Assembly (NCBI GenBank): GCA_029937545.1
Contig: JAPYPR010000001.1
Location: 77,730 to 141,729 of the forward strand
Direction of reading: 5' to 3'
Origin: Erythrobacter sp.
GTDB lineage: Bacteria; Pseudomonadota; Alphaproteobacteria; Sphingomonadales; Sphingomonadaceae
Length of the DNA stretch: 64,000 nucleotides
Shown: in pieces, positions 56,905-59,253 of the stretch
Layout: every line of letters starts with the position of its first letter
How positions within the stretch are numbered: the stretch's first letter is position 1
Notes under the pieces: model-generated
Seen by the model: the letters and a program-made list of their open reading frames with translations, nothing else
Told to the model about the DNA's origin: nothing
Database searches by the model: none
Program-made: the position numbers and the translations under genes

Positions 56905-58926
56905 CTAGTCCTCGACCAAGTCGGGAGGTGTCGCCTCGGCCTTGAGCAGGGCGATCGCCTCGTCGAGGCTCATTACCCGCTGCTCCTTCTCGCCCAGCGT
57001 GCGGATGGCGACGGTGCCTTCCTCGGCCTCGCGATTGCCGACCACCAGCAGGTGGGGGACCTTGGCGTGGCTGTGTTCGCGCACCTTGTAGTTGATCTTC
57101 TCGTTGCGAAGATCGCTCTCGACGCGAATGCCCGCCGCTTCCAGCTTGACGACCGCTGCCTTTGCGTAGTCGTCGGCGTCGGAGACGATGGTCGCGACCA
57201 CCGCCTGCACCGGCGCGAGCCACACCGGCAGGCGGCCGGCGAAGTGCTCGATCAGGATGCCGATGAACCGCTCGTAGCTGCCGAAGATCGCGCGGTGCAG
57301 CATCACCGGGCGGTGCTTCTCGCCATCCTCGCCGACATAGCTCGCATCGAGGCGATCGGGCAGCACCCGGTCGCCCTGGATCGTGCCGACCTGCCAGGTG
57401 CGGCCGATCGCATCGGTGAGATGCCATTCGAGCTTGGGCGCATAAAAGGCGCCTTCGCCGGGCAGTTCTTCCAGCTTGCCGTCGCCTTCGCCCTGCATGT
57501 CGCTGACCGCGACGGCATCGCGCAATTCCTGCTCCGCCTTGTCCCAATCCTCGTCCGAACCGAAGCGCTTTTCGGGGCGCAGCGCGAGCTTGACGTCGTA
57601 AGTGAAGCCGAAGTCGCGATAGACCTGGTCGGCAAGCTCGATGAAGGCCTTCACCTCCTCGACCACCTGCTCTTCAGTGCAGAAGATATGCGCATCGTCC
57701 TGCGTGAACTGGCGCACGCGCATCAGGCCGTGGAGCGCGCCATGCGGCTCGTTGCGGTGGCAGCAGCCCATTTCGCCCAGCCGGATCGGCAGATCGCGAT
57801 AAGACGTAATGCCCTGCTTGAAGACCAGCACATGCGCCGGGCAGTTCATCGGCTTGATCGCCATCCAGTCCGCATCGGGCGCGACACTCGGATTGGCCGG
57901 ACCGTCTCCGAGTTCTTCGACCTCCGGCACCATGTCGGGCACGGCGAACATGTTCTCGGCATATTTGCCCCAGTGGCCCGACTGCTCCCACTGGCGCACG
58001 TCCATCAGCTGCGGCGTCTTGATCTCGCGATAGCCGGCCCTGTCCATCTTGCGGCGCATATAGGCTTCCAGCTCGCGCCAGATGCGATAGCCCTTGGGGT
58101 GCCAGAAGACGCTGCCATGCGCCTCTTCCTGAAGGTGGAAGAGGTCCATCTCGCGGCCCAGCTTGCGGTGGTCGCGCTTGGCTGCTTCCTCCAGCCGCGT
58201 GAGGTGGGCGTTGAGTTGCTTCTTGTTGAGCCAGCCGGTGCCGTAGATGCGCGTGAGCTGCGGATTGTTCTGGTCGCCGCGCCAGTATGCCCCGGCAACG
58301 CGTGTCAGCTTGAAGGCCTGCGGGTCGAGCTTGCCCGTGCTGGCGAGATGCGGGCCGCGGCACATGTCGAGCCAGTCCTCTCCCGACCAGTAGACCGTCA
58401 GCTCCTCGTTTTCGGGCAGTTCCTTCGCCCATTCGGCCTTGAAGACTTCGCCCTCGGCTTCCCACTTGTCGATCAGCTGCTGGCGGCTCCAGACTTCGCG
58501 GCGCAGCGGCTTGTCGGCCTTGATGATGCGGCGCATTTCCTCCTCGATGTCGGGGAGGTCGTCCATGCTAAACGGCTCGCGGTCGGCGGGTGCTTTCACG
58601 TCGTAATAGAAACCGTCGTCCGTCGCGGGTCCGAAAGTGATCTGCGTGCCGGGGTAGAGGGATTGGACAGCCTCGGCGAGGACGTGGGCGAAATCGTGCC
58701 GCGCCAGTTCGAGCGCATCTTCCTCGTCGCGGCTCGTGATCAATGCCAGTTCGGCATCGCCCTCGAAGGGGCGGTTGATGTCGCGCAATTCACCGTCCAC
58801 GCGCGCGGCGATCGCGGCCTTGGCAAGGCCGGGACCGATCGCGGCGGCGACATCGCCGGGCGTGCTGCCAGGTTCCATCTCGCGCACCGAACCGTCGGGC
58901 AGGCTGATCTTGAGCAGTTCCGTCAT
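56905..58926 (-). CDS. thrS: Threonyl-tRNA synthetase
   Basis: TGS domain, [86 protein letters not shown]. Confidence 0.98.
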
Positions 58927-59009
58927 CTTATCTCGTCCGTTTCCTTGCGCGGCCCATGGCACAGGCATGCGCACCGTTGAAGCGGCGTTTTTGTTTTGTT
59001 GCGGCACCG

Positions 59010-59073
59010 GCCCTCACCCCCTCCCGGCCACCCACGGAATAATCCTATCGGGTGGCCGGCAGGGGGTGAGGGC
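59010..59073. repeat. Intergenic palindrome (24-bp arms, 1 mismatch), same family as 52-134
   Basis: gccctcaccccctcccggccaccc ... gggtggccggcagggggtgagggc; shared GGCCACCCACGG-A--AT--...GGGTGGCC core. Confidence 0.85.
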
Positions 59074-59145
59074 TGGCGCCGCCAACGAAGAACCGATTTC
59101 GAGAGGAACGCCGCGCCACCCGAAACCGGGCGGCGGTGGCTGCGA

Positions 59146-59217
59146 TCAGGCCGCGACCATCCGCCCCCGGAAATCCGGGGTGGTGGTAGTCGTGGTGGTG
59201 AAGCGCAGTTGCGTCAT
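59146..59217 (-). CDS. Candidate Thr-rich attenuator leader peptide upstream of thrS
   Basis: MTQLRFTTTTTTTPDFRGRMVAA*, seven consecutive Thr codons at 59179-59199. Confidence 0.65.
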   Translation of the reverse strand: MTQLRFTTTTTTTPDFRGRMVAA

Positions 59218-59224
59218 GGCCGGA

Positions 59225-59253
59225 CAGATAGCGCGGGTGCCTGCGCTTCTCAA
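59225..59253 (-). promoter_or_regulatory. Candidate sigma70-like promoter TTGAGA-N17-TATCTG, 7 nt before the leader ATG
   Basis: Minus strand gcgacTTGAGAagcgcaggcacccgcgcTATCTGtccggccATG. Confidence 0.55.

Follow-up and report, generated by a model that had tools for sequence, protein, structure and literature searches.

A probable ribosome-mediated threonine attenuator, predicted to be leaderless, upstream of thrS in Erythrobacter sp. and other Sphingomonadaceae

Introduction

The Rfam family Thr_leader represents attenuation of the thrABC operon of E. coli, in which the leader contains Thr and Ile codons. Ribosome-mediated attenuators control amino-acid operons in proteobacteria, as far as the survey of Vitreschak et al. 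(2004) is related in PMC10117765, and are also found at pheST (PMC1262725). In the α-proteobacterium Sinorhizobium meliloti, the attenuator trpL has a leaderless leader ORF, and a Thr/Lys-rich ORF precedes an aspartate dehydrogenase gene (PMC10117765). In Actinobacteria, the LEU element at leuA has a run of Leu codons, after which come alternative folds and a pseudoknot in place of a terminator, and the survey describing it contains no such leader for threonine (PMC1262725). The principle is already known, and one thrS leader has earlier been proposed in Streptomyces, namely the leaderless Thr leader thrL of Streptomyces lividans, which was listed on the strength of transcript data and has two Thr codons and no U-tract (PMC8079986).

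The element described here lies in a window of 64,000 nt from Erythrobacter sp. (Sphingomonadaceae), the whole stretch of DNA that was analysed. It shares attenuation by a Thr-rich leader with Thr_leader, which belongs to the thrABC operon, but an Rfam search of the region with E up to 5 returned neither a Thr_leader nor a T-box match; its matches to the palindrome and to GC-rich stems, at E up to 5, were taken as chance only. Like thrL, it is a predicted leaderless leader before thrS with a hairpin and no U-rich tract, for which Thr sensing is proposed (PMC8079986). However, thrL has only two Thr codons (MKRVRPFLETTPGFVPAR) and is known from one genome, and we saw no sequence likeness, whereas the element here has a Thr run, covarying alternative helices and a conserved family. 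With the proteobacterial attenuators, as they are summarized in the sources cited above, it has in common an amino-acid-rich leader and mutually exclusive pairings 1:2, 2:3 and 3:4 (regions are numbered below), and it differs in its target thrS, its predicted leaderless start, the lack of a U-tract and the extra pairings 4:5 and 4':6. The leaderless trpL attenuator is likewise from an α-proteobacterium, but it concerns Trp and trpE and is a different RNA (PMC10117765). The LEU element resembles it in having alternative folds after a codon-run leader, but concerns Leu and leuA and is not homologous as far as we could see (PMC1262725). No description of Sphingomonadaceae thrS leaders came up in our literature search, which left most subscription journals outside. 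To the known principle, the present analysis adds comparative support, a putative antiterminator, two further covarying helices and a family-wide lack of a U-tract.

Results

Layout of the thrS upstream region

As in known leader-peptide attenuators, a short ORF rich in the relevant codons lies just upstream of the gene presumed to be regulated. The first-pass annotation had pointed to an ORF upstream of thrS in which seven of the 23 codons are consecutive Thr codons, and to a TTGAGA-N17-TATCTG promoter-like pair ending 7 nt before its ATG. Both can be read directly from the minus strand, where the ORF runs from its AUG at 59217 to a stop codon at 59148-59146 and 7 nt separate TATCTG from the ATG. 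The features, with window positions and the evidence behind each, are as follows.

59225-59253, minus strand: promoter P1, TTGAGA (59253-59248), 17-nt spacer and TATCTG (59230-59225); sequence and the -10/-35 regions of relatives
59146-59217, minus strand: leader-peptide ORF MTQLRFTTTTTTTPDFRGRMVAA, 23 codons and stop, predicted leaderless; sequence and conservation
59179-59199, minus strand: seven Thr codons, whose 3' end and the following CCGG form region 1; sequence
59151-59170, minus strand: region 2, CCGGGGGCGGATGGTCGCGG, partner of region 1 or 3; sequence, constrained folds and pair table
59126-59140, minus strand: region 3, GCCACCGCCGCCCGG, partner of region 2 or 4; covariation of 3:4
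59116-59128, minus strand: region 4 with the preceding loop, CGGTTTCGGGTGG, partner of region 3 or 5; covariation
59107-59114, minus strand: region 4', GCGGCGTT, partner of region 6; swap test and complement classes
59094-59103, minus strand: region 5, CTCGAAATCG, partner of CGGTTTCGGG in region 4; covariation of 4:5
59003-59080, minus strand: palindromic repeat element between regions 5 and 6; genomic copies, absence in the nearest relative
58982-58989, minus strand: region 6, AACGCCGC, complementary to 4'; swap test, complement classes and sequence
58954-58982, minus strand: possible proximal promoter P2, CTTC (58982-58979) ... TGTGCCATGG (58963-58954); pattern resemblance
56908-58926, minus strand: thrS, threonyl-tRNA synthetase, 673 aa, the putatively regulated gene; TIGR00418 match, E=7e-192

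The two hairpins described earlier, CCCCGGA/TCCGGGG and GCCACC/GGTGGC (59140-59115), are present. However, the 3:4 stem conserved in relatives is a different one lying inside the span of the latter, CCGCCCG/CGGGTGG, which pairs 59133-59127 with 59122-59116 and has the CGGGTGG of region 4 as its 3' arm. At its upstream edge (59250-59253), P1 overlaps the final codons of the gene that precedes it on this strand and has its stop codon at 59252-59250.

Conservation and distribution

A short ORF that is 20-26 codons long and contains a Thr run precedes thrS in 23 of 80 named-genome loci. In the 22 loci with the full element the leader peptides have 21-26 residues (for example MTQLRFTTTTTTTPGLRGRMVAA and MALMTTTTTTTTTGAARGRIVAVI), their starts having been chosen adjacent to the -10 box. 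Wider surveys used a covariance model of the core, an earlier model (R1) having been set aside for its poor automatic structure. The model matches 153 of 401 same-family genomes and 45 of 96 genera, so that by this measure the Thr run suggested as a mark of the element is indeed kept upstream of thrS in relatives. Among 100 further model matches (L120-L219), 97 have thrS downstream; L216, L218 and L219 are weak family matches inside coding genes and were dismissed as chance. Outside the family the model gave nothing convincing: the best match had E 1.8e-4, and the loci fetched contained no thrS and were also taken as chance.

On a tree of ThrS the element is near-universal in the Erythrobacteraceae part, which holds the window, and is spread over the family with at least seven presence/absence changes. 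This distribution would be accounted for if an old element had been lost several times, although the change count does not distinguish gain from loss. At locus L011 just 50 nt separate the end of the leader ORF from thrS, and the later hairpins are absent, which resembles a decayed copy.

Promoter and start of the leader

In the 87 relatives with a located leader start, the -10 box lies at -13 to -8 relative to that start, T occurs at -35 in 70% and C at -1 in 74%, and the start codon is ATG in 84. The promoter-to-AUG spacing on which a leaderless start had been proposed is thus a conserved feature, and a -10 box 8-13 nt upstream of the AUG implies that the transcript, as predicted from sequence, is leaderless. 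A simple Shine-Dalgarno motif precedes only 2 of the 87 leader starts, but the same strict motif is found in just 12 of 97 thrS genes, so its absence at the leader is not diagnostic and the -10 spacing is the stronger argument.

A CTTC...CCATGG box occurs at 91 of the 134 loci that bear the leader (2.25 in shuffles), at a median of 29 nt before the thrS AUG, where relatives without the leader have similar boxes. From this resemblance, the CTTC...TGTGCCATGG box is a possible second promoter (P2), which next to thrS would probably provide a floor level of expression.

Threonine codons

Runs of about six Thr codons are not rare in this genome by composition (5 matches, against 7 for a reversed-pattern control), and its other ACN runs do not resemble leaders. 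By sequence comparison, an in-frame Thr run before thrS that is kept across dozens of genera lies far beyond chance. In 100 aligned loci the first two positions of the last four codons of the run are A and C in 95-99%, and all four letters occur at the third positions, so that selection acts on the codons and not on the RNA sequence alone.

Helices and switch geometry

Across 99 distinct sequences, the 3:4 helix is 94.7% paired and shows 34 both-side changes, where shuffles gave 14. The 4:5 helix draws on the loop and the 3' arm of 3:4. It is 81.3% paired and shows 61 both-side changes, where shuffles gave 29.7 (0/500), in an alignment whose model did not include 4:5; sliding the partner lowers the pairing. 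For 4':6, the native stem was stronger in 90 of 100 cases when partners were swapped between species, and an exact complement of each 4' class is found downstream in 52 of 93 loci, against 8.4% for other classes. Since the sequences are related, all of these counts are inflated, and the shuffle counts are not probabilities. The covarying stems expected in relatives are seen in 3:4, 4:5 and 4':6. Pairing of 2:3 is frequent but little varied, so this helix rests on complementarity and folding. The putative 2:3 antiterminator, the 4:5 and 4':6 helices and the repeat in this copy go beyond the first-pass annotation.

In 86 of 100 relatives the final Thr codon precedes region 2 by 11 nt, and in 90 of 100 the stop codon precedes region 3 by 14-19 nt. 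Such distances among the Thr run, the stop codon and the hairpins fit what ribosome-mediated attenuation would require. In constrained folding, only the RNA left free by the ribosome was folded, and the stall was placed at the penultimate Thr codon. With the ribosome stalled, 2:3 was predicted in 75 of 100 loci, 4:5 in 40, 4':6 in 38 and 3:4 in 27; with the ribosome at the stop codon, 3:4 was predicted in 81, 4':6 in 72 and 4:5 in 9; and without a ribosome, 1:2 was predicted in 73 and 3:4 in 55. Comparison and folding together thus indicate that ribosome position would select between mutually exclusive helices, and the predicted folding is classic attenuation logic with an added layer.

Discussion

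We estimate a probability of roughly 0.8 that this element is a ribosome-mediated attenuator, in which tRNA-Thr charging would set thrS expression from the upstream promoter. The Thr-rich ORF and the switchable folds would probably raise the amount of enzyme when threonine-tRNA is short. The conserved Thr run, the -10 spacing and the covarying stems all speak for the kind of element first suggested for this locus. Some observations, besides the missing U-tract taken up below, weigh against it: thrS is not always the first gene, an RNase-AS-like ORF standing before it in some genera; minimum-energy folds give 4:5 in only 40 of 100 stalled cases; and P2 would bypass the switch. If the reading holds, an essential tRNA synthetase is predicted to be under feedback control across a large family of environmental bacteria. 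The Thr leaders at thrS, a conserved family with good support, also offer a clean natural case for how a codon-run attenuator stops transcription without a U-tract.

In the mechanism we propose, transcription would begin at or beside the first nucleotide of the leader AUG, and a ribosome engaging this leaderless RNA would translate the Thr run. When Thr-tRNA is scarce, the ribosome would stall over region 1, 2:3 and 4:5 would form, and RNA polymerase would continue into thrS. When Thr-tRNA is plentiful, the ribosome would reach the stop codon and cover region 2, so that 3:4 forms, 4':6 pairs and expression is cut off. The cut-off, the least certain step, may be a premature stop of transcription that needs no U-tract, perhaps with Rho acting on region 5, which is C-rich and would be hidden by 4:5 in the starved state. 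All these functional steps, Thr sensing included, we infer from the sequences. Tentatively, and at clearly less than even odds, the element may be an attenuator of six segments, in which the ribosome chooses between 3:4 with 4':6 and 2:3 with 4:5, perhaps with a 4:5/4':6 pseudoknot, and in which the off-state involves no intrinsic terminator but Rho or another factor. Such an architecture, if true, is not described in the literature searched.

The lack of a U-tract after the hairpins on the thrS strand, already remarked on in the first-pass annotation as a weak point, proved to be a property of the family. There is no T-run here, at least five T in any 8 nt after 3:4 occur in 6 of 100 loci, and the longest T-run is 1-2 in 83 of 100; other terminators predicted in the window carry T-rich tails. 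The off-step is therefore probably not ordinary intrinsic termination, and with a conserved hairpin but a U-tract missing in 94 of 100 loci, we did not file the element as a classic intrinsic-terminator attenuator.

Rho-dependent attenuation, in which region 5 and its surroundings would be a Rho loading site that is open with 3:4 and closed by 4:5 upon starvation, is a real possibility, though we put it somewhat below even odds. Besides the absent U-tract, it is favoured by the C-rich, G-poor composition of the stretch between 4' and 6 in relatives (40% C and 20% G in and around region 5, where the following 70 nt have 28% and 29%) and by the covariation of 4:5 although its apical pairs sit in the 3:4 loop. 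However, a high C content is a weak argument for a rut site, genera bearing the RNase-AS-like ORF have higher G (39% C, 27% G), and when 3:4 is formed, region 5 is enclosed in a loop by 4':6.

Alternatively, 3:4 may itself be an intrinsic terminator that functions despite its poor U-tract, UUUCCUCC. The 1:2/2:3/3:4 arrangement of classic attenuators is in place, GGCG-UUUCC follows the hairpin in some relatives, and a full T-run is found in a Thr leader of another family (L267, see below). Nevertheless, we regard this as rather unlikely given the T counts above; moreover, RNase-bearing genera keep the folds with no T-run after them, and 4:5, which can form only once the polymerase has passed, would have no role.

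Translational control, in which the switch would hide or free the ribosome site of the next gene, is improbable. Region 6 adjoins the start of the inserted ORF in RNase-bearing genera, but the predicted openness of the ribosome site is unchanged between the two ribosome states for both the inserted ORF (0.42 and 0.39; P=0.41, n=11) and thrS (0.47 and 0.47; P=0.64, n=86), and a translational switch is not supported. That GC-rich repeats or RNA stems produced the Thr run incidentally, with no regulatory role, is hardly credible: ACN codon runs do arise elsewhere by composition, but the codon-position pattern, the fixed spacing and the conserved place at thrS across 45 genera largely refute it, as judged by comparison.

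Returning to the attenuator reading, we favour termination of an unusual kind, by Rho or some other factor, as the off-step, since U-tracts are few, the openness of the ribosome site is unchanged and the C-rich region, though compatible with Rho, is weak evidence for it.

In other α-proteobacterial families, a scan gave Thr leaders at thrS in 4 of 89 loci, where about two are expected by chance. One of them is convincing: in L267 the Thr leader MFKRPTIETTATTTLLEGP lies ~136 nt before thrS and is followed by a hairpin and then TTTTTT, which implies that the thrS logic can use ordinary termination elsewhere. L270 and L278 are weaker candidates. As for comparison attenuators in the genome studied here, none was seen upstream of trpE or ilvB.

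In eleven loci thrS is ~500 nt further downstream because another ORF intervenes. An ORF of ~165 residues lies between leader and thrS in L125, L131, L134, L139, L141, L148, L149, L152, L159, L164 and L165. The intervening ORF (MRYYIDTEFNG...) lies immediately after region 6 and weakly matches RNase AS / Rv2179c-like exoribonuclease.

In this species, the thrS leader carries an insertion of its own. The palindromic repeat of ~78 bp has many diverged copies (40 match rows, on both genome strands) and is absent from the leader of the nearest relative, L074. The leader-to-thrS distance is 291 nt here and ~200 in relatives, and despite the inserted repeat, regions 4' and 6 are still complementary.
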